Origin: Paludibacter sp. 47-17
GTDB lineage: Bacteria > Bacteroidota > Bacteroidia > Bacteroidales > Paludibacteraceae
NCBI GenBank assembly: GCA_001898935.1
Contig: MKVT01000020.1
Span: 186,001-250,000, forward strand
DNA: 64,000 nucleotides
Direction: 5' to 3'
Shown piece by piece: positions 14,257-48,803 of the stretch. The first letter of the stretch is position 1. Each line of letters starts with the position of its first letter. A model generated the notes under the pieces. The model ran no database searches. It saw only the letters and a program-made list of their open reading frames with translations, and was not told the origin of the DNA. A program made the position numbers and the translations under genes.

Positions 14257-15165
14257 ATGAAGAAACCAATTTTACTGTTTTTGATTACGTTGTTGTTGCC
14301 CGGACTTGCGGCTCAGTATCTGGAAGTACTATCGGTGGACAAGCAGGAATTTCCAGTAGCCGGCGGGTATTTTTATCCGCAATTCGGACACGATGGTTCG
14401 TATTTGTTATTGACGTCGGCCAATTATTCAGGATTGAAAAAATGGGATTTGAATACCCGTTTGATGGAGGTGTTGACTGCGGAACCCGGAGCAGGTTACG
14501 CCGCTCGATTGAGTGAGGATGGCGGGGAGCTGGTGTTTACAAAAATCGAGTTGGTAAATAAGCTACGGCACAATTCCTTGCACCGCATTTCGTTGGCGAC
14601 AGGTGAAAAACAGAAGCTCACCGAGCCGGGGCGTGAGGCAATCACACCTGCTTTTGCGGGTAAGCGGGTATTGTATGTGAAAGCCGGCAAGCTGCAAAGA
14701 GGGGCTGTGAAGCAAGCCGAAATAAAGAGTATGGTCACCATCGAAAACCGGAAGATGGTCGTGTATTCTTCGGCCGGTCGTAAAATAATTGATCCGCTGG
14801 GCGGCGATGCGAGTTATATCTGGCCGTCGATTTCGCCCGATGGCACGAAACTTTTGTTTACCGCCGCAGGGCGTGGGACCTATGTTTCCACCCTGAGTGG
14901 AAAAAATGCTGTAGCGCTGGGTAAGCTGAATGCTCCCGTATGGCTCAGCAACACCTGGGTAGTGGGCATGGACGATAAAGACGATGGCGGACGGGTAGTT
15001 GAATCGGTTCTTTGGCTGGTATCGGCAGATGGACATAAAAAACAGCAGCTTACCACTGCGTCCGATTTTGTAGCCATGTATCCGGCCGTCTCGCCGGGGG
15101 GCAATCAAATTGCTTTCAATACCGATAAAGGTGAAGTCTATATTCTGAATATTAAGTTACGCTAG
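14257..15165 (+). CDS. Exported PD40 (TolB-like) beta-propeller protein, copy 1
   Basis: I start it at the ATG at 14257, where a signal peptide begins (MKKPILLFLITLLLPGLAAQ). An upstream in-frame ATG at 14206 would add a tail unlike a signal peptide. The roughly 302-residue product has repeated WD40-like PD40 motifs (YIWPSISPDGTKLLFTAAG, MYPAVSPGGNQIAFNTDKG) as in TolB, so a beta-propeller is expected. It is paralogous to 24549-25463; both share NAPVW and VVGMDDKDDG-type segments (MNDKDDG in copy 2). Each copy lies directly before a secreted amidase, which suggests the two act together, perhaps by binding murein fragments or chaperoning the enzyme. The biochemical function is unknown. Confidence 0.75.
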   Translation: MKKPILLFLITLLLPGLAAQYLEVLSVDKQEFPVAGGYFYPQFGHDGSYLLLTSANYSGLKKWDLNTRLMEVLTAEPGAGYAARLSEDGGELVFTKIELVNKLRHNSLHRISLATGEKQKLTEPGREAITPAFAGKRVLYVKAGKLQRGAVKQAEIKSMVTIENRKMVVYSSAGRKIIDPLGGDASYIWPSISPDGTKLLFTAAGRGTYVSTLSGKNAVALGKLNAPVWLSNTWVVGMDDKDDGGRVVESVLWLVSADGHKKQQLTTASDFVAMYPAVSPGGNQIAFNTDKGEVYILNIKLR

Positions 15166-15169
15166 GAGG
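15164..15169 (+). promoter_or_regulatory. Strong Shine-Dalgarno sequence overlapping a stop codon
   Basis: AGGAGG lies eight bases before the amidase ATG at 15178, and its first two bases are the last two of the preceding TAG stop (15163-15165). Full SD sequences are uncommon in Bacteroidota. The site fixes the amidase start and suggests efficient or coupled translation. Confidence 0.6.
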
Positions 15170-15177
15170 ACCCGACC

Positions 15178-18100
15178 ATGAAAAAAGATAAGCTTATTCT
15201 GATGGTGTTTTTTGTATGTATGAACCTCTCCGCTGCCGATTTCACAGGGGTTAAAATTTACCTGAATCCGGGTCACGGAGGCTGGGATGCCAACGATCGT
15301 AATATTCAAACCATCCCCTTTGCCATGGGCGATACGCTGGGGTTCTGGGAGTCGAAAAGTAATCTGGTGAAGGGGCTGTACCTCCGCGATCTGCTTCAGG
15401 CCAACGGCGCCACCGTGTATATGTCGCGCACCCGCAACCGTACCGAGGACGACCGTTCGCTTTCCGAAATTGCCGCCGAGGCCAATGCCAATAATGTGGA
15501 TGCATTTTTGTCGATTCACAGCAATGCCGTAGGCAACAACGTAGGGACCAATTACCTGCTTTTGTTGTTTCACGGCCGCGATAATGCTCCTAAATATCCG
15601 CAAAGTCTGGTTCAGGCCCAGAAAGCCTGGCCCCGGTTGCTCAACAATCAGCTTACGGTGTGGACGCACTATGCGACGACAACCAATATAAGAGGCGATT
15701 CGACTTTTTATGGTACCTACGGCTTGGGTGTGCTGACTCCGCTGGTGGTACCCGGTTTTTTATCCGAGGGTTCGTTTCACGATTATAAACCCGAGACGCA
15801 CCGGTTGTTGAATGCCGATTATTGTAAGCTGGAGGCGACAAATTTTCACCGGTATTTCTGCGATTATTTTCAGACTGCTTTACCTGCTACGGGGGTCATC
15901 GCCGGATTTGTGAAAGGAGTGGATCAAACCCTCAATCATGCCCAGTATGTTTACAAGGCAGGTACCCACGACCGGTGGTTGCCTCTGAACGGTGCACGCG
16001 TGAAACTGATGAATCAGTCAGGCGACTCATTAGCCGGTTATGAGGTGGATACTTTGTACAATGGAGTGTTTGCCTTTCACGCCTTACAGCCGGGAACCTA
16101 TAAACTTCGTGTTTCGGCTGCCCATCACACGTCCAAAGATACTACAGTGGCCGTAACGGCTTCGACGACTACCTTTGTCCCGATGATGCTTGTCAACCCG
16201 GATCTGGTGGTACAGCGCGATACTACTCCCAACTATCCCGATCCTGTTCAGGAAGCCGGGGCGGTTGTGCTGGAGAACTATGCCTTTAACCGGACCTCTT
16301 CGCAGGTGCCCGGATGGTTGAATGCAGCTACGGTGCGTAAGGTGCTGTATCGAAACGATAAATGGTATGTGTTGACCACCGAACCTAAGATATTGGTGGT
16401 GAATGCAACCACCAATAGTGTGATTACGGAAATGAACCTGACGGGTATAAGTGGCGGTCAGCTTGCACTGAGCGATATGGCTTTTACATCCGATGGTTAT
16501 TTGTTGGCTTGCAACAAAGAGGTAGTCGGATTGCCCGAAACGCAGGGACGGTATTTCAAGGTATATAGCTGGGACGACGATACTGCTGCTCCTTCGCTTT
16601 TGTTCCAGACTCAGAGCCAGGGTAACTGGTCGAACGGGGAAATGGGCGAGACGATGGCGGTGAGTGGTCCGCGCTGGAGGTGTAGGGTGTATACTCCGTC
16701 GGTTACTACGGGCAGCAGCCGGGCGATACGCATCGTAGGATTAAATTATGAAGAAGGGCAACAGGCGGTAGGGTATAAATACATGCTCGATGCGGCTGCA
16801 TATACCGAAGCGCTCTGGGGAAAGAAATTGAAATTTACGGTTTCGCCCTTTGCCAACGATCGCATTGTGATCGACAGTGAGAAGTTGCAGCCTACCGATT
16901 TTCAGTTCGACTGGTCGCGCCCCGATCGTGATCCGTTGATTGCTCATGGCAGTTTTACTGCCGAAGTACCCGCTGTTTCGTTTGGCGGTTCGTTTTTCCG
17001 GCATGCCGGAGCTATTCTGATGGCTGCCCCGCAGAGTACCGCCGATTCGTCGGCTGTGACCATACGATTATACAATGTGACCAATGGTTTAGGTCAGGCA
17101 GTGGCGGTTTCCGATAGTTATACCACCGAGAGTGCTGCGTCGGGGAAGGTGCCTTACATGGCAGCCGGAGCGGCGGTTACGGGCTACGACATCGACCTGT
17201 TGTTGCTGGCCGGCATGCAGGGAGTGGCGCGGTTTAAAACGGTGGCGCCGGCAGTAAAAGCGAATATTTTTGCCTCGGAGTTGTCGATGGAAACCCTTAC
17301 GGACGGATACCGGTTCCGGTTTACGCTCAACGAAGCTTCGTCGGCTACCTTATTGCATCTGCAAGAAGCCGGCGATATGGCGGTCACCAAAACCATCGAT
17401 TTAGGACCGGTGCCGAAAGGTGTCAATACACGTGATTTCTCTTTTGCCGAAATGGAGTTGGGCGAAGGTACCTATAGTTGGAGTATTGAAGCCGAAGCTT
17501 CGGGTATCGACCGTCCGATGAAACTTTCATCCGACGGGGTGTCGCAGCTGCAATTCTATTCGCCCAGAGGAGTAGCGGTCGATAATTCGATGGAGAGTAA
17601 GTATTTCGGAAGGGTATATGCTTCGGAAACGATCGGCGGCGCCGTTACTTCGCGTACCACTACCGATGGCATTTATATTTTGAATTCGGCCCTTGAAGAT
17701 GTCACTTTACAGGGAGCTACGGCATACGGCGGCGGTGTGGCATGGGCAGGAGCCGGTTCGCCGATGCGTGTAAGTGTTGGGGAGGATGGTTGGGTGTATT
17801 TAACCGACTGGAGCGATACTAATCCCGGGGTGTGGCGTATGGATCCCGAACGTCCTGCCGATGCATTTACTCCGGTGTTTTCCGGATTGAGCATCACTAC
17901 AGGACTGGCCAAGTACAACGGGGTGAACATTCACGGAGCCATTTCGCATTGCTGGGTGACAGGTACCGGCGAAAACACCCGTTTGTTTACGTTTGATAAA
18001 TACTATGTTGACGCAGTGGCTGCCAACAGAGGTAATCTGTTGCAGTACACTATCGGAACCCTTGCATCGCCCCGGCAAACGCCTCCCGATGCGATTGTGT

Positions 18101-18849
18101 ACAACGATGGATTGAATGGCAATCTGCAACAAAATTATAATTCGTGTATCGCGCCCGACGGCAGAGGGGGTTGGTGGATTTCCCAGTATCGTTTCGAAGA
18201 TGCGGCCGCTATCCCTTCGTTGATTCATGTCGACGGAACCGGAGCGGTACGGTTCAATTCGGGTTTAACTCCGCTGCTGATCGGAAACTCGGTAATGGGC
18301 GGTCTGGCAGTTCATCCCGACGGCAAACGGCTTGCCATGGGATGTTCCAACGAAGTCAAGGTGTTTGAGGTTCGTTTCGATGCTTCGGGTGCGCCTGCCT
18401 TGAGGTTGATGCATTCGATAAAACCAGCCATGGGTACTAATACGGTTGGATTATCGTACGACCTGGCGGGTAATCTGTATGTTATTTCCAATACGAGCGA
18501 GCGCCTGGGAGTATGGGCCATGCCCAAGGCCGACAACCGGTTTGTAACCCACGCTGCGCCGGCTTACCGGATTGTAGTTCTCCATACTTCGGTCGACAAT
18601 CCAGTGGCTGTCTCCGACGAACCGGTCAAGCTGTTCCCGAATCCAGTTGGCGATGTGTTGCGTATAGCGGCAAACGCAACCGGTTTGAAAAAAGTGGAAC
18701 TGTTTGATTTAAACGGGAAGCTGGTGCTGACTGAAGATCTGTATTCCGAATCGGCCGAGCTGCAGGTGTCGTCGTTACCACCAGGAGCTTATATTGTTCG
18801 TGTACATGCTCAATCCGGTATTGTTACAAAACGAATTATTAAAAAATAA
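15178..18849 (+). CDS. Secreted N-acetylmuramoyl-L-alanine amidase with propeller domains and T9SS sorting domain
   Basis: A 1223-residue multidomain enzyme predicted to remove stem peptides from peptidoglycan outside the cell. After a signal peptide (to about residue 20) comes an Amidase_3 domain with zinc ligands H33 (NPGHGG), E58 (FWESKS) and H114 (SIHSNA) and the catalytic-type E197 (FLSEGS). A carboxypeptidase-regulatory-like domain follows (about 255-340), then two DUF4623-like propeller regions (about 365-690 and 790-1130). The C-terminal T9SS domain starts near VKLFPNPVGDVL and ends KRIIKK. Its amidase domain is closely paralogous to 22127-24541. It is second in the plus-strand operon, 12 bases after the PD40 gene. 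The large propeller tail is unusual for an amidase and may bind substrate. Confidence 0.88.
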   Translation: MKKDKLILMVFFVCMNLSAADFTGVKIYLNPGHGGWDANDRNIQTIPFAMGDTLGFWESKSNLVKGLYLRDLLQANGATVYMSRTRNRTEDDRSLSEIAAEANANNVDAFLSIHSNAVGNNVGTNYLLLLFHGRDNAPKYPQSLVQAQKAWPRLLNNQLTVWTHYATTTNIRGDSTFYGTYGLGVLTPLVVPGFLSEGSFHDYKPETHRLLNADYCKLEATNFHRYFCDYFQTALPATGVIAGFVKGVDQTLNHAQYVYKAGTHDRWLPLNGARVKLMNQSGDSLAGYEVDTLYNGVFAFHALQPGTYKLRVSAAHHTSKDTTVAVTASTTTFVPMMLVNPDLVVQRDTTPNYPDPVQEAGAVVLENYAFNRTSSQVPGWLNAATVRKVLYRNDKWYVLTTEPKILVVNATTNSVITEMNLTGISGGQLALSDMAFTSDGYLLACNKEVVGLPETQGRYFKVYSWDDDTAAPSLLFQTQSQGNWSNGEMGETMAVSGPRWRCRVYTPSVTTGSSRAIRIVGLNYEEGQQAVGYKYMLDAAAYTEALWGKKLKFTVSPFANDRIVIDSEKLQPTDFQFDWSRPDRDPLIAHGSFTAEVPAVSFGGSFFRHAGAILMAAPQSTADSSAVTIRLYNVTNGLGQAVAVSDSYTTESAASGKVPYMAAGAAVTGYDIDLLLLAGMQGVARFKTVAPAVKANIFASELSMETLTDGYRFRFTLNEASSATLLHLQEAGDMAVTKTIDLGPVPKGVNTRDFSFAEMELGEGTYSWSIEAEASGIDRPMKLSSDGVSQLQFYSPRGVAVDNSMESKYFGRVYASETIGGAVTSRTTTDGIYILNSALEDVTLQGATAYGGGVAWAGAGSPMRVSVGEDGWVYLTDWSDTNPGVWRMDPERPADAFTPVFSGLSITTGLAKYNGVNIHGAISHCWVTGTGENTRLFTFDKYYVDAVAANRGNLLQYTIGTLASPRQTPPDAIVYNDGLNGNLQQNYNSCIAPDGRGGWWISQYRFEDAAAIPSLIHVDGTGAVRFNSGLTPLLIGNSVMGGLAVHPDGKRLAMGCSNEVKVFEVRFDASGAPALRLMHSIKPAMGTNTVGLSYDLAGNLYVISNTSERLGVWAMPKADNRFVTHAAPAYRIVVLHTSVDNPVAVSDEPVKLFPNPVGDVLRIAANATGLKKVELFDLNGKLVLTEDLYSESAELQVSSLPPGAYIVRVHAQSGIVTKRIIKK

Positions 18850-18874
18850 ATCACTTTACTAAAAACAGAAGTAT

Positions 18875-20635
18875 ATGAAAAAGATCACTTTCCTGGCCAT
18901 TTTTATGGTTCTTTCTCTCCTGGCTGCGGGTGCTGCCGGACTTTCGGGTGTGTATAAAGTGGGTGTTTCGGAAACTGCACCCAACTTCAGCTCGTTGAAT
19001 GCTGCGTTTGAGGCACTCAATACGCAAGGGTTAACAGGCAATGTAGTGCTCGAGATCACCTCAGACATTACCGAAGCTGCCAATATCGGCCTGGGAGTTA
19101 ACACCGGTGGGTTTAGTATTGTTATTCGGCCCGACGCCGATGCCGATCGTACTGTTACTTTTACGCAGCTGACCGATAACACGAGTCCTACCGGACACCT
19201 GGTGATTGGTTATCCCACTGCTGGTCTCACCCAGGCATGGGCCGATGCCAATACTATCGGAACCGATAATGTTACCATCGATGGTTATGCGGTAGGCGGC
19301 ACTACCCGTCGTTTGACCTTTACCAATACGAATGCGTCGCACACCGGTGCCAGGGTAATTGTAGTGGTGGGCGACTGTGAAAATGTAACCATCAGAAATT
19401 GCAATGTTATCAACAATACCACCAGTACCAGTTCGCCATTCTGCGTGGGCGCCGTGGTACGTAAAGGTACTGCCATCGAAGTAGGTCCAACCAACCTCAC
19501 CTTCGAAAATAATGTGCTCACCGCCCTGGGCAATAATGTGGCCATGGGTTCGCGTATCACCAATTCGGGTACGCTAACAACGGTGAAAGCTACCAATGTG
19601 GTGTACAAAAACAATATCATCCAGGCTCGCCGACGGTTGATTGAAGTGAATTACACCAACAATATGCTGGTTGAAGGCAATGAATTTATTCAGGATCAAA
19701 CGGGAGCTGCCGGGACCATCAGTTACGGCTTGTGGACCTCGTCGGGCGTAACAGGTACCGTAAATATTCTGAATAATAAATTTATCCGGTCCACTACTGA
19801 AGAGGTTTCGGGCAACGGACACCGAACCGTGTCGTTATCGTCGGGGGCTACTTACAACGTATTTAATAATACCTTTGCCGGAATGGATAAAACCAAACCT
19901 TCGACTACGGCAACCAATTTAGTGTATCTGTTCTACAGTGGCGTAGCCGGTAAAATTTACAACAATACCTTCTACATGCCGCAGCTTACCGATCCGTCGT
20001 CGACCGGATATTATGCAGCGATCCAATTATCGGGTAATACAGCCGAAATAAAGAATAATATTTTTATGAGTAATGAATCGACCCACAGTAATGCGTATTT
20101 CATTAGTGCGGTTCCTACGCCCGAGAGCGATTTCAACCGGTTTTATACCCTGCCTTCCAACAGCACTCACAAGTATGTAGCTGCTTTTCTGAGCCTTACC
20201 GATTATCAGGACGCTAATCCAACCAAGGATATAAGTTCGAAGGTGGTGAATGTGACTTTTGAGAATGCTGCGGCGGGTAACTTGCTGTTGGCAGGAGAGT
20301 CGGTGCAGGATGCGAATCTGGCTGTAGCCCGCTTGTCGGATGTGTCGAAAGATATATTGGGAACCGATCGTTCGGAGCTTACCTATGCAGGTGCACACGA
20401 AGCGAAGTTGCCATTTATCTCGACACACAATCCTGCGGTTGAGCAAACTGCTCGAATTCTTCGTACGCCGGAAGGAGTTTTGATTGAACTCGATTCGGAG
20501 GCCCTGATCGAAATATATGCCATGAATGGTGCTAAAATTGAAAGTGTGCGTACCTCGGGAAGCTATACCAAAGACCTCGAAAAGGGCATTTATATTATCC
20601 GGATTAACGGAGTCGGAACAAAATTCATGAAGTAA
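18875..20635 (+). CDS. Secreted right-handed beta-helix protein with T9SS sorting domain
   Basis: A 586-residue exported protein (signal peptide to about residue 21). Its central part has the regular Asn-rich turns of a pectate-lyase-type parallel beta-helix: NVTIRNCNVINN, NLTFENNVLTALGNN, NVVYKNNIIQARR, GTVNILNNKFI, KIYNNTFYMP, AEIKNNIFMSN. The C-terminal 60 residues resemble a T9SS domain (IEIYAMNGAKIES, GIYIIRINGVGTKFMK). Such folds often bind or cleave polysaccharides, but no catalytic set can be assigned. It lies 25 bases after the amidase gene, so it is probably co-transcribed and may bind or cleave glycan released by the amidase. No family-level function is claimed. Confidence 0.75.
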   Translation: MKKITFLAIFMVLSLLAAGAAGLSGVYKVGVSETAPNFSSLNAAFEALNTQGLTGNVVLEITSDITEAANIGLGVNTGGFSIVIRPDADADRTVTFTQLTDNTSPTGHLVIGYPTAGLTQAWADANTIGTDNVTIDGYAVGGTTRRLTFTNTNASHTGARVIVVVGDCENVTIRNCNVINNTTSTSSPFCVGAVVRKGTAIEVGPTNLTFENNVLTALGNNVAMGSRITNSGTLTTVKATNVVYKNNIIQARRRLIEVNYTNNMLVEGNEFIQDQTGAAGTISYGLWTSSGVTGTVNILNNKFIRSTTEEVSGNGHRTVSLSSGATYNVFNNTFAGMDKTKPSTTATNLVYLFYSGVAGKIYNNTFYMPQLTDPSSTGYYAAIQLSGNTAEIKNNIFMSNESTHSNAYFISAVPTPESDFNRFYTLPSNSTHKYVAAFLSLTDYQDANPTKDISSKVVNVTFENAAAGNLLLAGESVQDANLAVARLSDVSKDILGTDRSELTYAGAHEAKLPFISTHNPAVEQTARILRTPEGVLIELDSEALIEIYAMNGAKIESVRTSGSYTKDLEKGIYIIRINGVGTKFMK

Positions 20636-20687
20636 AACGGCAGTAAACAGTTAAAACTGTCTTTTTATGCAAATTTTAACCGTTTTA
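20633..20687 (+). terminator. Weak two-tier hairpin after the beta-helix gene
   Basis: Outer arms TAAAACGG (20633-20640) and CCGTTTTA (20680-20687) enclose an inner ACAGT/ACTGT hairpin (20647-20660) followed by CTTTTT. This could be a weak or partial terminator before the next gene, which has its own -7 element. Confidence 0.4.
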
Positions 20688-20712
20688 TAGCTCGTAGTAG
20701 TTATAAAATGGT

Positions 20713-20720
20713 TAAATTTG
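20713..20720 (+). promoter_or_regulatory. Bacteroidota -7 element for the DUF4623-like gene
   Basis: Reads TAAATTTG, an exact TAnnTTTG match, 65 bases before the ATG at 20785. No -33 TTG was seen. With the hairpin just upstream it suggests that this gene can be transcribed separately. Confidence 0.45.
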
Positions 20721-20784
20721 AAGCCTTGCCGGATTCGTCATAATGCCGGAAGTTACTAGTGTTCACCTTAAAAAATATACTGAT

Positions 20785-22068
20785 ATGAGAAAAATTACCG
20801 CTATTATTGTTGCTTTTTTGATGTCCCTGGCAGTCATTGCCGAGGATCTGGTTATCACTCCGCTGTGGGAGTTCTCTGTACAATCGGCCAATTTGGGTAC
20901 TGCGGTCGACGATGTTAAGAACGGCATAGCCGTGAGTCCCGATGGAGCCAATCTTTATTTAAGTACCCGGACGGCCGATGCCAGCCAGGTAGCCATTTAC
21001 AATGCATCTACCGGAATTCGTTCGGGATACCTGCCGGGTCTTGCCGGTTTTGCTTCAAATTATGGCGGCGATGTAGCGGTTGATGGCAATGGGGCCATTT
21101 ATGCCAGCAATGTGATTATTAGCGCTTCGGCTTTAAAAGTAGCTCGCTGGGCTTCGCCGGCAGCCACTCCCGAATTGTTTATATCCACTACTGCGCATAC
21201 CGGATCGGGCACCAACCGGGTTGGTTACGGAATGGATGTAAGAGTCGATCAGGCAGGCGACGGTTTTTTGATTATGCATAAAAACGGGACTGCCGATTTC
21301 TTGATTTGGCTGATCGACAATAACGTACCGGTTTCGCAGGATCCGACCATTCTAACCGCCTCGCTCGAATCGGGTATTGCAATTACCGATTCGTATGCGC
21401 GTATTTCGATTATCGACGATAATTCTTTCTGGTTCGATGGCAATGTGACCCGTCCGCAGCTGGTTACGATTACAAAAAATGGAACTGCCATTAACTCGGC
21501 ACCTACCGCTTTAAGCTATACCACCCTGGCATTCCGTTCCGATGTGAACGCTGGTGTGGGAGGTGCTGCCGAATTCATGCTCGAAGAAAACCGTTACCTG
21601 GTTTTTGCCGCCAACAATCATGGTACCACGTTTACCGAAGGTCATATGGCCCGTTTTCAGAAGTTATTGGCCACAGGCGTAACTGTCGATGGAGAGGTGC
21701 TGGCTACTTTCCCGGCTGCAGGTCTGGGAAAAACGACCGACGCTTCGCATTTTGTGGAACCTGCGGTATATGTTAACGGGACCGATGCTTATATATACGT
21801 GCTGGGAGGATTTAATGGCATTGCCGCCTATAAGGTGAGTGCACCCGGCATCTCGACTTCAACTTCCGGAACATCGGTTTCGTCGATGTTGCGCCGCACG
21901 GCAAGTGGTATTGCCATCGAGTTGAATAAGGAATCGTTGGTTGAAATCTTTTCTGTTACCGGAGCAACGGTTGTGTCGACCCGTACCAGCGGCATCTTTA
22001 CACACGATCTGAATACAGGGATGTATATTGTGAGAGTCAATGGTAAAGCTGCCAAATTTATAAAATGA
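20785..22068 (+). CDS. Secreted DUF4623-like beta-propeller protein with T9SS sorting domain
   Basis: I start it at the ATG at 20785, where a signal peptide begins (MRKITAIIVAFLMSLAVIAE); the in-frame ATG at 20743 would precede it with an unlikely tail. The roughly 427-residue product has propeller-like repeats (NGIAVSPDGANLYLSTR, GGDVAVDGNGAIYASN, YVNGTDAYIYVLGGFNGIAAYKV), resembling the DUF4623 family of Bacteroidales and the propeller part of the amidase at 15178. The C-terminus carries a T9SS-type domain (VEIFSVTGATVVSTRTSG, MYIVRVNGKAAKFIK). It is likely surface-exposed or released, and a binding role in murein or glycan capture is a guess. It ends 19 bases before the bidirectional terminator. 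Confidence 0.7.
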   Translation: MRKITAIIVAFLMSLAVIAEDLVITPLWEFSVQSANLGTAVDDVKNGIAVSPDGANLYLSTRTADASQVAIYNASTGIRSGYLPGLAGFASNYGGDVAVDGNGAIYASNVIISASALKVARWASPAATPELFISTTAHTGSGTNRVGYGMDVRVDQAGDGFLIMHKNGTADFLIWLIDNNVPVSQDPTILTASLESGIAITDSYARISIIDDNSFWFDGNVTRPQLVTITKNGTAINSAPTALSYTTLAFRSDVNAGVGGAAEFMLEENRYLVFAANNHGTTFTEGHMARFQKLLATGVTVDGEVLATFPAAGLGKTTDASHFVEPAVYVNGTDAYIYVLGGFNGIAAYKVSAPGISTSTSGTSVSSMLRRTASGIAIELNKESLVEIFSVTGATVVSTRTSGIFTHDLNTGMYIVRVNGKAAKFIK

Positions 22069-22087
22069 GCCGGTTGAGCCAGTGTTG

Positions 22088-40872: not shown

Positions 40873-41028
40873 ACGATAAAATTTGTTTTATAAAAACGGG
40901 CATCGAATGAAATGCAGTTACCGGTACTTCTTTCAAGGCTCGTTTTGTACAGTATTTTGATTTAAGGAAAATTCAATGATTTGTCTTGTGTTTAACGTAT
41001 ATAATGGCAGAAATGTTTACCATTTTAA

Positions 41029-42549
41029 CTAAATACGCCGCGTAATAGCCTGAATTGGAGTGCTTTCTCTTCTGAATCTGTTAACGCTTGTAATGATGAA
41101 GGTGTAATTTCCTTTCAGTTTGCGCTGTAATAGTGTCAAATCGACATAGGTTTTAGTCGTTTTTATTAAAATAGCCGACGGATCGTCAATATTGCCTGGT
41201 TTTTTACCTTTAAATGCATATACCACATAGTAGGCAATCTGCTTGCCTTCCTCTCCGGCTACGGGATCCCACATCAGCATTCGGTCGCGCCGGTCCTTTA
41301 CGATGCGTAAATTGGCAGGCGAGGCACTGGCTTCGCCGGGTACCGACCGGTTAACGGGATTGATGGCCGGGTAGCGATAGAAATCGGTGGCCAGGCTGTC
41401 GGTGAGCCCCTGCAGATTTTTCATAAAGCCCCTGGCGCTGAAGAATATTGCGCCATCCACACCGCTGTACTGCTGGTTGAGCCGTAATTGCCGCGCGAGT
41501 TCGTTGGGGCGCTGCCAGGCCGGATCGGCTTTTTCGTTGCCCAGTTTTGACGCATACAGGCCGATGTAGAGGTTTTTACCATACACATTTTCGTTCCACC
41601 ACTTGACCAGGATGGCGTAGTCGGCCACTTCCTTGCCGATTTCCCAATACAACTGCGGGGCTACATAATCGATCCAGCCTTCGCGCAGCCATTTCAGGAT
41701 GTCGGCATACAGATCGTCGTAATTCTGTACTCCGGCCCGGGTAGCCGAACCGGCCGGATCCACCGTATTGTTGCGCCAGACTCCAAAGGGCGAAATGCCG
41801 AATTCGACCCAGGGTTTGTTGCTTTTGATGGTGTGTTGTAACTCTCGGATAATAAGATCGACATTGTTGCGCCGCCAGTCGTCGCGCTCATGAGCAGCAA
41901 AACCCCGGGGATTTTTCCGGAAGGTGTCGTCGTCGGGAAAGTCCTCGCCGGCTACTTTGTAAGGATAGAAGTAGTCGTCAAAATGGATGGCATCCACATC
42001 GTAGCGTTGTACAATGTCTTCTACCACCCTGTTGAGCGACTGGCGGGTTTCGTCGAGTCCGGGGTTGAAATACAATTGATTACCATACCGTACAAACAGT
42101 TCGGGCCGCCGGAAGTACAAGTGGTCGGGATGGAGCAGCTCGGGCCGGTTCGAATTCATCACGCGGTAGGGGTTGAGCCAGACGTGCACTTCGATGCACC
42201 TGCGATGCGCTTCTTCGATTATAAAGGCAAGCGGATCGTAGAACGGAGATGGTTTTTCGCCCTGTGTGCCGGTGAGCCAATGCGACCACGGCTCCAGGGC
42301 CGACGGATAAAAAGCATCGGCAGTAGGCCTGATCTGCATCACTATCGTATTAATATTAGCCTTCGAAAGGTAATCGAGGAGCTGGACCATCTCTTCCTTT
42401 TGAACCGAAGGAGCAAGCCCCGGTTTCGAGGGCCAGTCGATATTGGCGACCGTAGCAATCCATACGGCACGCATCTCGTGCTTGCGGGCAAGCGGGAAGG
42501 CGCTCGCGGAAATACAACCAATCAATAACAGGAGTACCGTTTTTTTCAT
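41029..42549 (-). CDS. GHL10 (DUF187) glycosidase, probably periplasmic
   Basis: A 506-residue member of the DigH/GHL10 family, expected to hydrolyse peptidoglycan-type glycan. I start it at 42549 (signal peptide MKKTVLLLLIGCISASA); an ATG at 42570 overlaps the stop of the preceding gene by four bases and would add seven residues, so coupled translation is possible. The catalytic barrel carries HEMRAVWIATVANIDWPSKP, MQIRPTADAFYPSALEPWS, IEVHVWLNPYRV and AIHFDDYFYPY. It ends with one FnIII-like domain and has no T9SS tail, unlike the paralogue at 30660. It is last in the murQ/namZ gene run, so a periplasmic step after import fits. Confidence 0.85.
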   Translation of the reverse strand: MKKTVLLLLIGCISASAFPLARKHEMRAVWIATVANIDWPSKPGLAPSVQKEEMVQLLDYLSKANINTIVMQIRPTADAFYPSALEPWSHWLTGTQGEKPSPFYDPLAFIIEEAHRRCIEVHVWLNPYRVMNSNRPELLHPDHLYFRRPELFVRYGNQLYFNPGLDETRQSLNRVVEDIVQRYDVDAIHFDDYFYPYKVAGEDFPDDDTFRKNPRGFAAHERDDWRRNNVDLIIRELQHTIKSNKPWVEFGISPFGVWRNNTVDPAGSATRAGVQNYDDLYADILKWLREGWIDYVAPQLYWEIGKEVADYAILVKWWNENVYGKNLYIGLYASKLGNEKADPAWQRPNELARQLRLNQQYSGVDGAIFFSARGFMKNLQGLTDSLATDFYRYPAINPVNRSVPGEASASPANLRIVKDRRDRMLMWDPVAGEEGKQIAYYVVYAFKGKKPGNIDDPSAILIKTTKTYVDLTLLQRKLKGNYTFIITSVNRFRRESTPIQAITRRI

Positions 42550-42566
42550 TCGATAGCGTTTTAAAG

Positions 42567-45485
42567 TCATGTTTTCTGAGGATCGGCTCCTGGTGCAGGC
42601 AGTGGCGAAAGTGGCGTCGTACACCGGTCGACCAGGTACACAATCGAGGTCCACGCCACATCGCTGTGGGTAGCCAGGCCAATTTCACAGGTGCGGCTAT
42701 TGCTGTACCCGGCCTGCACCCCAGCTTCCTTGAGCTGAGGACGAAGTTTGCGAAGCCCGTGCCTGTTTAATTCGGGAACCGTAAAACCTTTGTCGCCCGC
42801 AAAACCGCAACAGGCCAGCCCGGCAGGGATGAACACGCGACGGCTGCACCGGCGGGCCAGTTGCACCAGCAAGGGGTCGAGCTGCATTTTCCGGGTCGAA
42901 CAGGTTGCAAATACCGTTACCACATCATCGGTCGGGTGAAATTCGAGCCTGTCGACTAAAAACCGTTCGATAAACTCCACCGGCTCATACAGTTTCAATC
43001 CTTTCATGGTGTTGCGCATGCGGTACAAACACGGGCTCTGGTCGCACAACACCGGATATTCGCCCTGGTTGGTGGCTGCCAGCAAGGCTGCTTCCAGTTC
43101 GTCCGATTTCTGTCCGGCTATGTCAGGCATCCCTTTGCTTTCCCAGATGGTTCCGCAGCAGAGTCGGTTCATCCGTTCGGGAAAGATAAGCTCGTATCCG
43201 GCTTTATGAAGCAAGGAGATGGTTTTTTCGGCCAGCGGTGTTCGGTCGGGGTCGCCTTTGGAACTGCCCATCATCTGGTTCAGGCAGCTGGGGAAATACA
43301 CCACTTTCAATGGCTGCCCCGGTTGCTGGGCCCGCAGCTGCCGGTTCAGGCTTTCGGCCCTGCGGGTCAACGATTGCCGCGTTGGCGCTGCAACCGGAAT
43401 AGAAGGCGTCCACAAGGGTATCGTGTTGGCGCTGATGTACCGCAGGCCTCTGGCCAGGCCGTTCATGAGGGGAGTGCCGGTTACCGAACGCACCGCATTA
43501 GCCGTAAATAATACGGTTTTTACCCCTCCTGCCATCCAGTGCAGGTGCGATGCCGTAAAGGCTCCGGCAGCCATAGCCGGGCGGCTGCGGCGCACCTTTT
43601 CGTGGCGCACGGCGTGAATATACTCTCCGGTGTTGATCCCTACCGGACAAGCTATGGCGCAGAGTCCGTCGCCGGCGCAGGTTTTATCGCCCGCATAATC
43701 GTATGCGCCGATCAATTCATTCAGAATGCCGGAATGTTCGCCTGTAGCGCTCAGCCGGGTAATTTCGCGTTGTACCACGATCCGCTGGCGGGCCGACAAG
43801 GTAAATCCGGCACTCACACAATTGATTTCGCAAAAGCCGCACTCAATGCATTGGTCGATGAGCGGATGGGTAGCCGGTAGCGCTTTCAGATTTTTCAGGT
43901 GACAGTCGGGGTCGTCGTTAAAAATGACACCGGGGTTGAGTATCCCTTGCGGGTCGAACAGGTGTTTGATCTCTTTCATGACCTGCCAGGCCGTTTCGCC
44001 CCATTCTTTTTGAACAAAAGGCGCCATGTTTCTACCGGTGCCGTGCTCGGCTTTCAACGATCCGTCGTAAGTATCCACCACCAGGTCGGCCACGGCTTTC
44101 ATCAGCCGGTCGTACCGCCTGATCTCGTCCTCGGTGTCGAAAAACTGATTGAGTATGAAATGGAAATTTCCTTCCAGGGCATGTCCGTAGAGTACGGCAT
44201 CGCCATAGCCATGGTGCAGCAATAACCGGCGCAGATCGCTTATGGCTTGCGGCAAATCGTGGAGCTGGAAGGCCACATCCTCGATGATGCAGGTAGTTCC
44301 CACCGGCCGTGTGCTTCCTACTGTGGGGAATATACCCGAACGCATGGTCCAATAGGGAGCGTACTCCTCTTCACGGTCGGTAAATACAGGATTACCCAGT
44401 AAAGGAAAGCCGGAAAGGACGGTAGTGACGGCGGCGATATTATCCCCCAATTCTTCCGGTGTAAATGCTTCGGTTTTCAGAAGCATTACCGCGCCATCGT
44501 CCGGCAGGTTGCGTAGTTCGGGCAGGGCGCCGGGTTTGTTTTCTACCGAACGGATGGCGGCACGGTCGAACAATTCGGCTGCTGCAACAGGATGCGGTTT
44601 CAGAGCTACAACAGCCTCGCACGCACTCCGGAGCGTAGGAAAAAACAGAAGCGCGCTTGCCGATAACGGTTTCAGATCGACGGTTTGCATGGTAACTTCG
44701 GCCAGAAAGGCCAGGGTACCTTCGGAACCTACGATGAGCCGGGTGATGATGTCGAAAGGATCGTCGAAATCGATCAGCGAATGGATGGAAAGACCAGTGA
44801 CATTTTTTATAGCGTATTTTTTGCGAATACGTTGTGTAAGTTCCTTATCGGCACGCACCTTATCTCTTATTGCTTCCAGTTGCTGCAAAAACGGGGCATG
44901 CGTTCGTCTGAACGCTTCTTTACTTTCCGTGTTGCCGGTGTCGAGTACCGTGCCATCGGTGAGCACCAGCCGCACCGATTCAATTGTGCGGTAACTGTTT
45001 TCGTGAATCCCGCAACTCATTCCCGACGCATTGTTCTGCACGATGCCACCCACCATGGCCGACTTTAAAGAAGCCGGGTCGGGCGGGAATTTCTTACCCA
45101 GTGGTTTCAGGAGATGGTTCACGTGCTGGCCCACGATTCCCGGTTGCAGGCTGATGTTACGGGCATCGGGCGAAATCCTGTAGTTTTCCCAGTGTTGCCC
45201 GGCTATCACTAAAATAGAATCGCTTATGGCTTGTCCCGATAAACTGGTACCTGCAGCACGAAAAGTCAACGACATGTCGAACTGCCTGGCCAGGTGCATC
45301 AGTCCTGCGATTTGCAACTCATCGGTCGACTGCACCACGACCTGCGGAATGAGCCGGTAAATACCGGCATCGGTACCCCAGGCCAACCGGCGTGTAGGAT
45401 CGAGATACAATAAACCTTTGGGGATCAGCCGGCGGATTTCGCTCAGAAACCGGCGGTAGGTGGGGGTGTCGGGACGAATGTACAT
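42567..45485 (-). CDS. FAD/Fe-S oxidoreductase fusion, D-lactate dehydrogenase-like
   Basis: A 972-residue fusion. It has an FAD-binding domain of the vanillyl-alcohol oxidase fold (TFRAAGTSLSGQAISDSILV, GIVQNNASGMSCGI, about 40-270), an FAD-oxidase C-terminal domain (about 280-535, with LKAEHGTGRNMAPF), two 4Fe-4S motifs (CIECGFCEINC near 545 and CAGDGLCAIACPVG near 600), and two CCG cysteine-rich repeats (CCGTIWESKG near 780, CCGFAGDKGF near 890). This is the GlcD-plus-GlpC-like architecture of quinone-linked D-lactate or D-2-hydroxyacid dehydrogenases. Its ATG directly abuts the namZ stop. As MurQ releases D-lactate, oxidation of that D-lactate is the most likely role; 2-hydroxyglutarate or glycolate are alternatives. 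Cytoplasmic or on the inner membrane face. Confidence 0.85.
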   Translation of the reverse strand: MYIRPDTPTYRRFLSEIRRLIPKGLLYLDPTRRLAWGTDAGIYRLIPQVVVQSTDELQIAGLMHLARQFDMSLTFRAAGTSLSGQAISDSILVIAGQHWENYRISPDARNISLQPGIVGQHVNHLLKPLGKKFPPDPASLKSAMVGGIVQNNASGMSCGIHENSYRTIESVRLVLTDGTVLDTGNTESKEAFRRTHAPFLQQLEAIRDKVRADKELTQRIRKKYAIKNVTGLSIHSLIDFDDPFDIITRLIVGSEGTLAFLAEVTMQTVDLKPLSASALLFFPTLRSACEAVVALKPHPVAAAELFDRAAIRSVENKPGALPELRNLPDDGAVMLLKTEAFTPEELGDNIAAVTTVLSGFPLLGNPVFTDREEEYAPYWTMRSGIFPTVGSTRPVGTTCIIEDVAFQLHDLPQAISDLRRLLLHHGYGDAVLYGHALEGNFHFILNQFFDTEDEIRRYDRLMKAVADLVVDTYDGSLKAEHGTGRNMAPFVQKEWGETAWQVMKEIKHLFDPQGILNPGVIFNDDPDCHLKNLKALPATHPLIDQCIECGFCEINCVSAGFTLSARQRIVVQREITRLSATGEHSGILNELIGAYDYAGDKTCAGDGLCAIACPVGINTGEYIHAVRHEKVRRSRPAMAAGAFTASHLHWMAGGVKTVLFTANAVRSVTGTPLMNGLARGLRYISANTIPLWTPSIPVAAPTRQSLTRRAESLNRQLRAQQPGQPLKVVYFPSCLNQMMGSSKGDPDRTPLAEKTISLLHKAGYELIFPERMNRLCCGTIWESKGMPDIAGQKSDELEAALLAATNQGEYPVLCDQSPCLYRMRNTMKGLKLYEPVEFIERFLVDRLEFHPTDDVVTVFATCSTRKMQLDPLLVQLARRCSRRVFIPAGLACCGFAGDKGFTVPELNRHGLRKLRPQLKEAGVQAGYSNSRTCEIGLATHSDVAWTSIVYLVDRCTTPLSPLPAPGADPQKT

Positions 45486-46712
45486 TTATTTATATAAATA
45501 ATAGCGCTTGGCTAAGGTTCGGAACGAACGCTCGTCTTTTCGGAAATAATCGAGCATATCGGCAGCACGGTGCGATACCGAAAATAACTTTCGGATCTGA
45601 TTGCTTCCGCACACCTTGTCGAACATTTCAAACCGCGAAGGATTTGCATTGTCGAAAATGGCATTGGAAGGGTAAAGCCGCGAAATTTCCTGCATGATGT
45701 AAAACTGAAGCTCGGTTAACCGTACGCTTTTGTAATCGGTGATGTGCAATTGCACTCCCTCGCATTGCTCTCCTTTAAAGGTGCCGTAAAATGGTTTGAA
45801 GTGAACCGGTCTGAAGTGTACTCCTGCCAATCCCAACTTATTCAGCGCATTGCTGAGCGAGTCGGCGTCTATCCAGGGAGCTCCCGCCATTTCGAACGGA
45901 AGTGTATAGCCCACCCCAATCGAAACGTAGCCCAATTCACCTAAAATTCCGGTGGCCGGATAGAAATAAGAACTGTGTTTATGCGGCAGATGCGGCGATG
46001 CCACCACCCAGGGTAATCCCGTGGCTTCCCAGTTCATGCTACGCTTCCAACCCTTCATTTTCACCACCGTGAGTCGACAGCTTTGGGCAATCATTTTCTC
46101 GTTGTTGATCAGGGTTGCCAGTTCGCCGCAGCTCAGACCGTAGATGTAAGGAATTGCAAACTGACTCACAAACGACCGGAAGGGGGCTTCGGCCAGGTTT
46201 CCTTCAATTTTTTCACCGCCCAGCGGATTGGGCCGGTCGAGCACAATAAACTCGATACCCGCTTCGGCAGCTGCTTCCATGGCAAGGCCCATGGTCGAAA
46301 TGTAGGTAAACGAGCGGCATCCATTGTCCTGTATGTCGTACACGAGTGCATCGATACCCCGGAGCATTTCGGGAGTGGGTTTGCGGGTGGCGCCGTATAA
46401 GGAATATACGGGGAGTAGGGTGCGGGTGTCGGAACGGTTGTCGATTTTATCGCCGGCATACACATCGCCCCGCACACCATGTTCGGGACCAAAGAGCGCG
46501 ACGAGTTGTACATTGGGAGCCTGGTGCAATAGGTCGATGGTGGAGTTGAAGCGGGAGTCGATACCGGTAGGATTGGTAATCAGTCCGATGCGTTTGCCTT
46601 CGAGCAGACGGAAATTATCCGCACGAAGTACCTCGATCCCGGTACGTACCGGGCGGGGATACGCGACGAGGCTTGTCCAGAAAAGGACAAGCAATAGAAG
46701 TGTTTTTCTCAT
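45486..46712 (-). CDS. namZ: Exo-beta-N-acetylmuramidase NamZ (DUF1343, GH171)
   Basis: Family DUF1343, characterised in Bacillus and Tannerella as NamZ, which releases terminal MurNAc from the non-reducing end of murein glycans. The 408-residue protein has a signal peptide (to about residue 18) and the family signatures GKRIGLITNPTGIDS, ALFGPEHGVRGD, LVYDIQDNGCRSFTYISTMG, FIVLDRPNPLGG, and VSIGVGYTLPFEMAGAPWID. It is probably periplasmic. Upstream lies the MurT-like gene (91-base gap with its own promoter); downstream the D-lactate-dehydrogenase-like gene abuts it. A palindrome in the promoter suggests specific control. The context with murQ strongly supports MurNAc salvage. Confidence 0.93.
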   Translation of the reverse strand: MRKTLLLLVLFWTSLVAYPRPVRTGIEVLRADNFRLLEGKRIGLITNPTGIDSRFNSTIDLLHQAPNVQLVALFGPEHGVRGDVYAGDKIDNRSDTRTLLPVYSLYGATRKPTPEMLRGIDALVYDIQDNGCRSFTYISTMGLAMEAAAEAGIEFIVLDRPNPLGGEKIEGNLAEAPFRSFVSQFAIPYIYGLSCGELATLINNEKMIAQSCRLTVVKMKGWKRSMNWEATGLPWVVASPHLPHKHSSYFYPATGILGELGYVSIGVGYTLPFEMAGAPWIDADSLSNALNKLGLAGVHFRPVHFKPFYGTFKGEQCEGVQLHITDYKSVRLTELQFYIMQEISRLYPSNAIFDNANPSRFEMFDKVCGSNQIRKLFSVSHRAADMLDYFRKDERSFRTLAKRYYLYK

Positions 46713-46744
46713 ATCAGATCACTTTTTGTCGTGAGACAGCTTGG

Positions 46745-46775
46745 CAAATGTAGAGAATATTATTCTCTTATCCAA
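46745..46775 (-). promoter_or_regulatory. Promoter of namZ
   Basis: On the minus strand TTG (46775-46773) is followed after 20 bases by TACATTTG (46752-46745), matching the Bacteroidota TTG / TAnnTTTG pattern at accepted spacing, 32 bases before the namZ ATG. It is the most complete promoter in the window. Confidence 0.7.
46752..46768. promoter_or_regulatory. Palindromic candidate operator in the namZ promoter spacer
   Basis: AGAGAATATTATTCTCT: two perfect 8-bp arms around one central base, lying exactly between the -33 and -7 elements. A dimeric repressor bound here would block the promoter. The same sequence was not seen before other genes of the cluster. Confidence 0.55.
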
Positions 46776-46803
46776 TACAAAAATGAATTTTTTCGGTAAA
46801 TTT

Positions 46804-47979
46804 TTACAACTTGATATAAATCCTCTTTTTGTAAAGATAATGACCTGCCAACCAGCAGACCGCCACGAAAATGATTGCGAAGGCCAGCGAGCCAGGATAA
46901 TCGCCCAGCAAAGGTTGAAAAACGTTCGTGTATAAAAAAGTCTTCACACTGAGCACAGTACCGTTCCGGTCGATCAGAAGATTGCCGGCAATTATACTCA
47001 GCAATGCGCCAAGTACGTATACAAACATCGGATTCACGCCGAACGATTCAAAGAATACGCTCCAACGCTTTTTGCCCCTGATGTCGATCAGGTATACCAG
47101 AAGTCCCAGCAGCAATGAGCCCATGCCGCAGGTGGTGAGTACGAAGCTGGAACTCCATAATTTTTTATTGATCGGGAATCCGTAGTGGAGCAGCAGGCCC
47201 GCGAACAGCAAAACAGTGCCGAACAACAGCAGAGCCTGCAGCTGATCGGTGGTTTTCTTTTTCCCGGTGAGCAGCTGTCCGGCCCAAAACCCGGTTAGTA
47301 CGTGGGCTATGCCCGGCAAGGTACTGAGTATGCCTTCCGGATCGAAGGCAATACGGGTTCCGTCGGCCATCGTGTCGCGGTACATATGCGATTCGCCGAG
47401 CAGCAGCCGGTCGGTAATGGCCACGATGCTGTCGGGGCTCATCGCGTAACTATCGGTGACATGAATCAGTATCCAGTATGCCAGCAAAATACCACCGATA
47501 AGCCAGGGGATCAGCGTGCGTTTGAAACTCAGTGCGATAAGGGTGCCGGCGAACGACACAAGGGCGAGCCGTTGCAACACGCCCAGCGTACGTAGGTTTT
47601 CGAGCGACGAAACCGACATCCACCATCCCGTCAGATTGTGTTGTGCGGTTTCCAGTGCATTCCATTGGCGCCAGCTCAACGACAGCCATCCCAGGGCCAA
47701 ACCGATCAGGAAGAGCAGGGCCGACCGGCGAAGTAGCTTTAAAAAGGTTTTGCCGGTAAGCCGGAAGTCGAATTTCTGGTACGATAGATACATCGAAATG
47801 CCCATGATAAACATAAAGAAGGGGAATACCAGATCGGTAGGCGTGAGTCCGTCCCAGGCTGCATGGCCCAGGGGGGTGTACACATGATTCCAGCTGCCGG
47901 GGTTGTTTACCAGAATCATTCCGGCTATCGTGATGCCCCGCATTACATCCAATGCCAGTAAACGTTGTGTCGGCTTCAT
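46804..47979 (-). CDS. MurT-like / HGSNAT-type inner-membrane protein, putative MurNAc transporter
   Basis: A 391-residue polytopic membrane protein, about ten predicted transmembrane segments. I start it at 47979, eight bases after the murQ stop; the longer open frame to 48450 lies inside murQ. The N-terminal LLALDVMRGITIAGMILVNN and AWDGLTPTDLVFPFFMFIMG segments mark the DUF5009/heparan-alpha-glucosaminide acetyltransferase-like family. From memory, a Tannerella forsythia protein next to murQ and murK, named MurT, was reported as an inner-membrane MurNAc transporter, and family members lie next to murQ in other Bacteroidales. An acetyltransferase role is the alternative. The symbol is left blank because murT also names an unrelated Gram-positive gene. 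Confidence 0.8.
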   Translation of the reverse strand: MKPTQRLLALDVMRGITIAGMILVNNPGSWNHVYTPLGHAAWDGLTPTDLVFPFFMFIMGISMYLSYQKFDFRLTGKTFLKLLRRSALLFLIGLALGWLSLSWRQWNALETAQHNLTGWWMSVSSLENLRTLGVLQRLALVSFAGTLIALSFKRTLIPWLIGGILLAYWILIHVTDSYAMSPDSIVAITDRLLLGESHMYRDTMADGTRIAFDPEGILSTLPGIAHVLTGFWAGQLLTGKKKTTDQLQALLLFGTVLLFAGLLLHYGFPINKKLWSSSFVLTTCGMGSLLLGLLVYLIDIRGKKRWSVFFESFGVNPMFVYVLGALLSIIAGNLLIDRNGTVLSVKTFLYTNVFQPLLGDYPGSLAFAIIFVAVCWLAGHYLYKKRIYIKL

Positions 47980-47987
47980 ATCGGTAA

Positions 47988-48803
47988 TTATTGTTGTGAA
48001 TAGGCATCGATGGCTTTTTTTACCGATCCGTGGATCAGCAACAGGTTCCGGGCTTGCTTGTAATCGAGCTGAAGCTCGTCGACAATCATCCGTGTACCCC
48101 GGTCGATTAATTTGGCATTGGTAAGTTGCATGTTTACCATCCGGTTTCCTTTTACACGGCCCAGTTGGATCATCGTGGCCGTAGTAATCATATTCAGCGC
48201 CAGCTTTTGTGCCGTACCCGATTTGAGACGGGTGCTTCCTGTTACGAATTCGGGACCTACCACCAGTTCGATCGCGATTTCGGCTTCCAGGGCAACCGGT
48301 GATCCCGGGTTGCAGGTAATGGCAGCCGTCAGGATTCCCCGGCTGCGGGCTTCCCGTAAGGCTCCGATTACATAAGGAGTAGTTCCCGATGCCGCAATTC
48401 CTATCACCGTATCGTCGGCATTCACCGAGTGTTCCACCAACTCTTCCCATCCCCGGTTCGGATCGTCTTCGGCATTTTCCACCGGGTTGCGCAAGGCCGT
48501 ATCGCCCCCGGCAATAAGCCCGATCACCAATTCGGGAGGCATGCCGAACGTGGGAGGAATCTCCGAAGCATCCAATACGCCCAGCCGGCCGCTGGTGCCG
48601 GCTCCCAGGTAAAATATCCGCCCCCCCCGCTTCATTCGTTCCACCACCTGCACGATCAGTTGGTTGAGCTGTGGTATGGCCGCTGCAACCGCAACAGGCA
48701 CTTTCCGGTCTTCTTCATTCATTTCATGAAGCAGTTCCTCGACACTCTTTTCGTCCAATCGCTCGTGTAAGGAGGGTTCTTCGGTAATCTTTCTGAATTC
48801 CAT
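47988..48803 (-). CDS. murQ: N-acetylmuramic acid 6-phosphate etherase
   Basis: Cleaves the D-lactyl ether of MurNAc-6-phosphate in the cytoplasm, giving GlcNAc-6-phosphate and D-lactate. The 271-residue protein carries the family SIS-fold signatures RIFYLGAGTSGRLGVLDASE, the VIGIAASGTTPYVIGAL stretch and STRLKSGTAQKLALNMITT. It has the usual length. It lies 10 bases after the diacylglycerol-kinase-family gene and eight before the MurT-like gene. It marks this cluster as a MurNAc catabolic locus. Its substrate needs a kinase or a phosphorylating transporter, and neither is obvious in the window. Confidence 0.96.
   Translation of the reverse strand: MEFRKITEEPSLHERLDEKSVEELLHEMNEEDRKVPVAVAAAIPQLNQLIVQVVERMKRGGRIFYLGAGTSGRLGVLDASEIPPTFGMPPELVIGLIAGGDTALRNPVENAEDDPNRGWEELVEHSVNADDTVIGIAASGTTPYVIGALREARSRGILTAAITCNPGSPVALEAEIAIELVVGPEFVTGSTRLKSGTAQKLALNMITTATMIQLGRVKGNRMVNMQLTNAKLIDRGTRMIVDELQLDYKQARNLLLIHGSVKKAIDAYSQQ

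Follow-up and report, generated by a model that had tools for sequence, protein, structure and literature searches.

This study concerns a locus in a 64,000-nucleotide window of Paludibacter sp. 47-17 (contig MKVT01000020.1, positions 186001–250000; G000:C20:186001-250000 in our numbering of genomes and contigs), the window being the whole stretch of DNA that was analysed. The genome is a draft of 4.18 Mb in 39 contigs. Between positions 14257 and 48803 the window very probably holds a peptidoglycan utilization locus, in which exported amidases and glycosidases, a SusC/SusD outer-membrane importer and genes for catabolism of N-acetylmuramic acid (MurNAc) stand together. The substrate, the location and the order of every step are predicted from sequence. 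Gene content, linkage conserved among relatives, conserved active-site residues and a core gene of the type IX secretion system (T9SS) in the genome are the observations on which this reading is built.

On the minus strand the genes run from murQ at 48803 down to amiB at 22127, and a plus-strand group occupies 14257–22068. They are listed in that order.

47988–48803, minus: MurQ, MurNAc-6-phosphate etherase (TIGR00274, above cut-off)
46804–47979, minus: membrane protein in the MurT position (weak HGSNAT/NagX matches; seven hydrophobic stretches; gene order)
45486–46712, minus: NamZ, exo-beta-N-acetylmuramidase (PF07075, PF20732)
42567–45485, minus: flavin (FAD)/iron-sulfur (FeS) dehydrogenase, proposed to oxidise D-lactate (PF02913, PF01565, PF02754)
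41029–42549, minus: GHL10b, tail-less GHL10 glycosidase, predicted to be periplasmic (PF02638, 271.2 bits; active-site residues)
37714–40872, minus: SusC-like TonB-dependent transporter (PF07715, PF13715, PF00593)
35902–37677, minus: SusD-like protein (PF12771, PF12741)
34999–35880, minus: lip2, putative lipoprotein (no Pfam match; lipobox-like motif)
33294–34979, minus: PKDlip, putative lipoprotein with PKD and propeller-like parts (PF00801/PF18911; lipobox-like motif; structure model)
30660–33281, minus: GHL10a, T9SS-tailed glycosidase (PF02638, 221.8 bits; TIGR04183; alignment to Cwp19)
28072–30609, minus: LBrpt, List_Bact repeat and propeller-like C-terminal part, no T9SS tail match (PF09479; structure model and fold search)
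25470–27956, minus: NAGPA-domain protein with T9SS tail, role putative (PF09992, PF18962; PDB alignment)
24549–25463, minus: PD40b, PD40a-like, adjoining amiB (no Pfam match; homology to PD40a through searches of relatives)
22127–24541, minus: amiB, Amidase_3 with T9SS tail (domain matches; start set by inspection)
14257–15165, plus: PD40a, PD40 beta-propeller-type protein preceding amiA (PF07676)
15178–18849, plus: amiA, Amidase_3 with T9SS tail (PF01520, PF18962; motifs)
18875–20635, plus: beta-helix protein (PF13229; a homologue adjoins amiA in G017)
20743–22068, plus: T9SS-tailed protein, no role assigned (TIGR04183, 27.9 bits)

The start of the MurT-position open reading frame (ORF) was corrected from 48450 to about 47979, the longer frame overlapping murQ. 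Starts were also corrected for GHL10b (about 42549), PKDlip (34979), NAGPA (about 27956) and amiB (about 24541). The gene families named in the original prediction, made from the letters alone, were all recovered in place by Pfam and NCBIfam profile matches, including the Amidase_3 and GHL10 domains with tails that it had read as two T9SS-exported amidases and a T9SS-exported GHL10 enzyme. Its secreted NAGPA protein has the expected domain and proved to be T9SS-tailed too. The second GHL10 protein is present without a tail, its periplasmic location being a prediction. SusC, SusD, lip2 and PKDlip are likewise present; the surface placement of the two lipoproteins leans on lipobox-like cysteine N-termini, found in PKDlip, lip2 and SusD, which are weak evidence as the same simple motif also occurs in PD40b, LBrpt, GHL10b and a PBP-like protein.

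Gene order in relatives

The survey of genus and order covered 80 genomes, 48 of the window's genus and 32 at order level. A murQ gene (E <= 1e-70) occurs in 44 of them, the window's own included, and in 66 if weak matches are counted. PKDlip (E <= 1e-170) occurs in 14, all of the genus (14/48, against 0/32 at order level). In half of these (G000, G025, G042, G017, G047, G020, G013) PKDlip and murQ share a contig and are no more than 16 kb apart. The distance is 35 kb in G045, the murQ contig breaks off inside SusC in G034 and G037, and the two genes are on different contigs, with linkage not assessable, in G041, G021, G002 and G011. murQ directly adjoins SusC in G025, G017, G047, G042 and G020, and in the first four of these the block reads SusC-SusD-lip2-PKDlip-GHL10a-LBrpt-NAGPA-(PD40)-amidase. 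The contig of G020 ends in PKDlip; in G013 about 10 kb separate murQ from SusC, and NAGPA is cut by the end of the contig. Two block-less genomes, G016 and G038, have murQ behind a small gene and no SusC, the small gene having a BadF-type match below cut-off in G038 and no Pfam match in G016. On the 5′ side of murQ in the window lie a DAGK/YegS gene, aroC, an FKBP-type gene and lptD, in the same order as in G037.

Scanning species genomes with an alignment of five PKDlip sequences yielded 57 loci, numbered L, of which 53 were kept after removal of L135–L138, which matched part of the query. The 53 include the partial matches L116 and L132, and at least nine overlap with the survey above; since PKDlip was the sole query and related genomes do not count as independent samples, the numbers below are not frequencies of independent events. 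The loci come from Paludibacter, other Paludibacteraceae, Dysgonamonadaceae, Symbiothrix, Prevotellaceae, Barnesiella, Bacteroides salyersiae, Limisoma, Muribaculaceae and other Bacteroidales. SusC-SusD-lip2-PKDlip-GHL10a stands in this order on one strand in 47/53 (exceptions L091, L095, L104, L116, L118 and L132), and with LBrpt and NAGPA behind it in 38/53. GHL10a is the most constant enzyme (51/53); NAGPA is present in 41/53 and doubled in several loci. A same-strand amidase match above 100 bits is found in 21/53, many stretches ending at about that point.

The position directly upstream of SusC can be assessed in 42 loci, those that extend 2.6 kb or more before it: murQ is there in 29, murK in 30 and both in 28. 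The 13 without murQ by the overlap rule are L082–L087, L097, L101, L117, L119, L120, L130 and L134. Among them, L101 does have murQ before SusC and failed the rule, and in L084, L086 and L087 murQ is farther off on the other strand. L117, from Bacteroides salyersiae DSM 18765, reads murK and then SusC-SusD-lip2-PKDlip-GHL10-LBrpt-NAGPA-NAGPA, with no murQ in the stretch of 21.6 kb. Conserved synteny with murQ, a check set by the original prediction, holds in most assessable loci, and the refuting outcome named there, absence of such synteny from all relatives, did not arise. Since the order is kept in many genomes, the neighbourhood is more than chance, and a chance neighbourhood is ruled out as an explanation. 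An order-wide search (E <= 1e-80), in which at most three candidates were scored per genome so that it may undercount, matched 9/393 genomes, the window's own included; the G119 match contains one TGA. Seven of the eight other loci were read (G088, G367, G156, G360, G402, G119 and G285; G403 was left out), and three have a MurNAc or lactate gene in view, namely murK-murQ in G088, the dehydrogenase in G367 and NamZ in G119. In G402 an AmpG-like gene lies in the matching stretch L085.

Further murein genes join the block. For instance, a divergent NamZ, a transglutaminase-like gene, an NlpC/P60-SH3 gene and an MR/MLE-superfamily gene precede SusC in G119, which belongs to another family. NlpC/P60 peptidases and an L-Ala-D/L-Glu epimerase of the MR/MLE superfamily serve murein peptide catabolism. 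The dehydrogenase adjoins amiB in G045, G041 and G367. An AmpG-family permease adjoins SusC in L084 and lies about 3 kb away, cut by the end of the stretch, in L085; the best model for both is TIGR00901, at 146.5 and 67.3 bits, below its cut-off of 350. A fusion of glucosamine-6-phosphate deaminase with PIG-L (NF002557, 1044 bits in G025) faces murK and has a relative in 21/53 loci. The contig of G045 carries, with the block, AmpG-NamZ-MurT-MurK, SpoIID/LytB, a PBP4B-like gene, a glycoside hydrolase (GH) of family 20 and murQ. Two long contigs, G045:C32 (L074, L157, L158, L075) and G041:C134 (L160, L076), hold the block, NamZ-MurT-MurK and a second amidase together, and in G045 a fusion of GH9 with a polysaccharide deacetylase stands between NAGPA and PD40.

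Ten NamZ neighbourhoods were compared, with an eleventh NamZ genome, G034, left out. NamZ and the dehydrogenase are adjacent in seven (G000, G037, G047, G017, G042, G013 and G025; not in G045, G041 or G066), and GHL10b follows in five of the seven (not in G013 or G025). This trio forms a separate cluster in G047, G017 and G042, so that the window looks like a merger of it with the murQ-SusC/SusD block. On G066:C113 (L080, L164) a Tannerella-like run of kinase, glycosyltransferase family 2 (GT2), DUF4922, SpoIID, AmpG, NamZ, MurK and MurQ is followed by a Golvesin_C protein, DUF4623, GHL10 and a distant SusC. This may represent another type of association with SusC.

Enzymes, importer and MurNAc genes

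T9SS tails are carried by four enzymes of the locus: amiA, amiB, NAGPA and GHL10a. The tail of GHL10a scores 25.0 bits with Pfam, below the 27-bit cut-off, and 24.7 bits with TIGR04183, above the cut-off of 23. SprA, the only T9SS core gene sought, is present in G000. Both amidases keep the motifs NPGHGG, FWESK, SIHSNA and SEGS, in which we take the zinc and catalytic residues of Amidase_3 to lie. Alignment of the NAGPA protein with solved DUF2233/NAGPA chains (3ohg and animal NAGPA) is confined to residues 331–415, the second half of the Pfam match (250–416). The protein is a possible remover of phosphodiester-linked polymers.

GHL10a residues 24–384 align with Cwp19 at E 1.4e-79, the sole PDB match at E <= 0.001. 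Twelve of the 13 Cwp19 active-site residues proposed or discussed in the structure paper (PMC5765458) recur in GHL10a, only Ser368 differing, and all 13 in GHL10b, by alignment to GHL10a. From their domain and these proposed residues, both proteins are proposed as candidate peptidoglycan glycosidases. DigH, too, is a member of the GHL10 family. Cwp19 is reported to be a lytic transglycosylase that yields mainly anhydro ends and whose products with free reducing ends carry unsubstituted MurNAc (PMC6016235), and DigH is reported to be specific for denuded glycan (PMC12288456); together these fit an amidase acting first.

As in a polysaccharide utilization locus (PUL) of the Sus type, SusC (37714–40872) adjoins SusD (35902–37677) and glycan-degrading enzymes are linked to the pair, namely the two GHL10 proteins, NAGPA and NamZ. 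In the 2017 structure paper (PMC5765458) GHL10 does not yet have a CAZy family number. PKDlip is a probable surface glycan-binding protein. The structure models of PKDlip and LBrpt have mean pLDDT values of 87.5 and 84.1, and in the fold search both resemble many propeller-type chains, the query-normalised TM-scores among the matches listed not exceeding 0.38 and 0.30, respectively. The matches include the B12-binding BT1954 for PKDlip; the best one for LBrpt is a DUF4623 protein, the domain also seen on G066:C113. At such TM-scores a substrate of either protein is not readable from fold matches. A distant PKDlip paralogue (123 bits) lies at G000:C34:178436-179653, perhaps in another PUL.

MurQ scores 313.5 bits with TIGR00274 against a cut-off of 302, and both the N- and C-terminal domains of NamZ are above cut-off. 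The protein called MurT-like in the original prediction earns that label by gene order, the run NamZ, MurT-position gene, MurK recurring in G045 and G041, and not by family. Tannerella MurT is called both a sodium-symporter-superfamily and a major facilitator superfamily protein in one paper (PMC5790795), neither of which corresponds to the HGSNAT/NagX models matched here. The dehydrogenase has FAD_binding_4, FAD-oxidase_C, FeS and CCG domains, one FeS model being just above and one just below cut-off. Its PDB matches include LctD and D-lactate dehydrogenases, and also glycolate oxidase; its best NCBIfam models, GlcD and YdiJ, are far below cut-off.

The window lacks the linked MurNAc kinase of a murTKQ-type operon. 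On contig C8 a MurK-type kinase, with 53% identity to its linked counterpart in G025, adjoins a GT2 homologue. It matches Tannerella MurK (8oqw) at E 2.9e-87 and K1058 (8oqk) at E 1.7e-76, the codes being printed as 8QQW and 8QQK in PMC10465942 and taken as these PDB entries. At the position where MurK has S133-P134 and K1058 has R-A, according to that report (PMC10465942), the kinase has S-P; nearer to MurK by E-value and with the MurK pair, it was not assigned to the K1058 type. MurA is above cut-off in G000 (MurB was not sought). Hence G000 should not depend on an outside supply of MurNAc, and MurNAc auxotrophy is not supported as a rationale for the locus. AnmK was not found in the draft genome, a search whose control matched in 5/14 genomes; the AnmK route was set aside, and the result fits free MurNAc rather than anhydro ends.

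Elsewhere in the window, a second SusC/SusD pair lies at 6962–14069 (SusD-like PF12741, 213 bits), adjoined by a divergent PBP-like lipoprotein gene (13080–14069). A third Amidase_3 protein at 54545–55738, tail-less (166.8 bits) and beside an MlaD gene and lptD, is probably a housekeeping enzyme. An alpha-amylase with CBM48 and a T9SS tail occupies 61006–63750, and a similar protein precedes the block in L134 (113–2884). The window has no tRNAs and no RNA families at gathering score.

Proposed pathway and its alternatives

In the proposed utilization of peptidoglycan, the T9SS-exported AmiA and AmiB would remove stem peptides from foreign or dead-cell peptidoglycan, and the T9SS-exported GHL10a would cleave the denuded glycan. 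NAGPA may take off polymers attached via sugar-1-phosphate bonds. PKDlip, lip2 and SusD would hold the glycan, and SusC would import oligosaccharides, which GHL10b and NamZ would trim in the periplasm, releasing MurNAc. The MurT-position protein would carry MurNAc inward and MurK, encoded on the other contig, would phosphorylate it. MurQ would then yield GlcNAc-6-P and D-lactate, the latter to be oxidised by the FAD/FeS enzyme. A bolder version, possible but doubtful, would make this a modular peptidoglycan PUL across several Bacteroidales families, in which T9SS-exported NAGPA cleaves the sugar-1-phosphate link of secondary polymers on MurNAc in Gram-positive walls and so opens the backbone to the amidases and a GHL10 enzyme specific for denuded glycan, with SusC/SusD importing the products.

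Several points weigh against utilization of peptidoglycan. The claim that nearly every step is covered needs qualifying: the MurK-type kinase of G000 is unlinked (contig C8, outside the window) and its best PDB match is the uncharacterised protein 1zxo. Among the locus ORFs scanned there is no beta-N-acetylglucosaminidase, needed to alternate with NamZ, and no stem-peptide enzyme (the search for both being confined to these ORFs), nor a regulator (shorter ORFs being outside the scan). The substrate of the dehydrogenase could be a different 2-hydroxy acid, and anhydro ends of the Cwp19 type are not expected to be usable by a cell without AnmK. In Barnesiella (L119, L120) and Muribaculaceae (L130, L134) the stretches that hold the block show no MurNAc gene, and L134 has an alpha-amylase. 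Similarly, G156, G360 and G285 show no MurNAc or lactate gene in view; G360 has GHL10a, with no NAGPA, LBrpt or amidase in view, and a GH31 gene adjoins. Because of such neighbours and the absence of MurNAc genes from view, the block may serve another glycan in these relatives. It is unlikely that this extends to the whole system, so that the SusC/SusD block would target another bacterial surface glycan, such as a phosphodiester-linked wall polymer, with the amidase and GHL10 only opening the wall and murQ handling a minor by-product. The prevalence and doubling of NAGPA, the blocks without MurNAc genes in view and the GH31, alpha-amylase and GH9-deacetylase neighbours in some relatives would agree with such a target. 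However, murQ and murK usually lie upstream wherever that side can be seen, NamZ, NlpC/P60, AmpG-like and dehydrogenase genes also join the block, and the near-constant GHL10a is closest to a peptidoglycan enzyme.

That the exported amidases and GHL10 are mainly weapons for bacteriolysis of competitors, with uptake of debris secondary, is very improbable. Two T9SS-tailed amidases and a T9SS-tailed GHL10 would suit this role, yet the run also holds SusC/SusD, NamZ and MurQ, which speak for feeding; roles in killing and in feeding are compatible. Recycling of the cell's own wall or cell separation, with a functionally unconnected SusC/SusD neighbourhood, has the slimmest chance of all. DigH and Cwp19, the nearest studied GHL10 enzymes, do act on their own cell wall, and murK-murQ-type pairs stand without SusC in G038 and G016 (in the latter with a kinase-position gene lacking a Pfam match). 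Nevertheless, the T9SS tails and the conserved murQ-SusC order speak against it, and the tail-less amidase at 54545 is available for own-wall work. Utilization of peptidoglycan as proposed in the original prediction is therefore supported by synteny, the pathway as a whole keeping the standing of a prediction.

Comparison with known systems

Peptidoglycan accounts for a large share of the material of dead bacteria. In anaerobic communities enriched on it, phylogenetically novel Bacteroidetes are reported to be prominent, and the degraders and their extracellular enzymes are named as a gap (PMC7511781). For this degradation the locus supplies enzymes that can be tested, an outer-membrane importer and a gene order that can be recognised elsewhere, and relatives of the block in Bacteroides salyersiae DSM 18765 and Barnesiella sp. 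An22 and An55 make parts of it testable in culture. The original prediction held such a locus to be undescribed, and the open-access literature searched agrees: no peptidoglycan PUL with SusC/SusD was among the matches listed, most subscription papers lying outside this scope. PULs and MurNAc salvage are known already; their combination with T9SS amidases, GHL10 and NAGPA seems not to have been described in that literature.

Like Cwp19 of C. difficile and DigH of E. coli, the GHL10 proteins have the GHL10 domain, GHL10a with most of the Cwp19 active-site residues; unlike these, an autolysin and a division enzyme, GHL10a is T9SS-tailed and lies beside a nutrient importer. The NAGPA protein shares the Pfam domain of NAGPA/DUF2233 phosphodiester glycosidases and differs in its T9SS tail and its place in a murein locus. 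With Sus-type PULs the locus has in common a SusC/SusD pair, lipoproteins and glycosidases in one run, whereas its apparent target is peptidoglycan, its enzymes are T9SS-tailed and the run ends in MurNAc-6-phosphate catabolism. A survey reports peptidoglycan GH families to be under-represented in PULs, yet present in "several predicted PULs" (PMC6499787).

The closest published salvage system is that of Tannerella. The operon of T. forsythia is listed as a xanthan-lyase-like gene, two gtf genes, lytB, ampG, ybbC and murTKQ (PMC5388701). Growth on intact sacculi is reported, as are amidase, transglycosylase and muramidase activities in extract and a need for AmpG on such sources (PMC7670621). 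T. forsythia is described as lacking MurA and MurB, unlike G000, which has MurA. The locus shares MurQ, NamZ and the MurT-position protein with the ampG-ybbC(namZ)-murTKQ run, the MurK-type kinase being elsewhere in G000; NamZ-MurT-MurK is kept in G045 and G041, preceded in G045 by AmpG, which agrees with the published Tannerella order. By its published gene list, the Tannerella operon is without the SusC/SusD pair, T9SS amidase, GHL10 and NAGPA that distinguish the locus described here.

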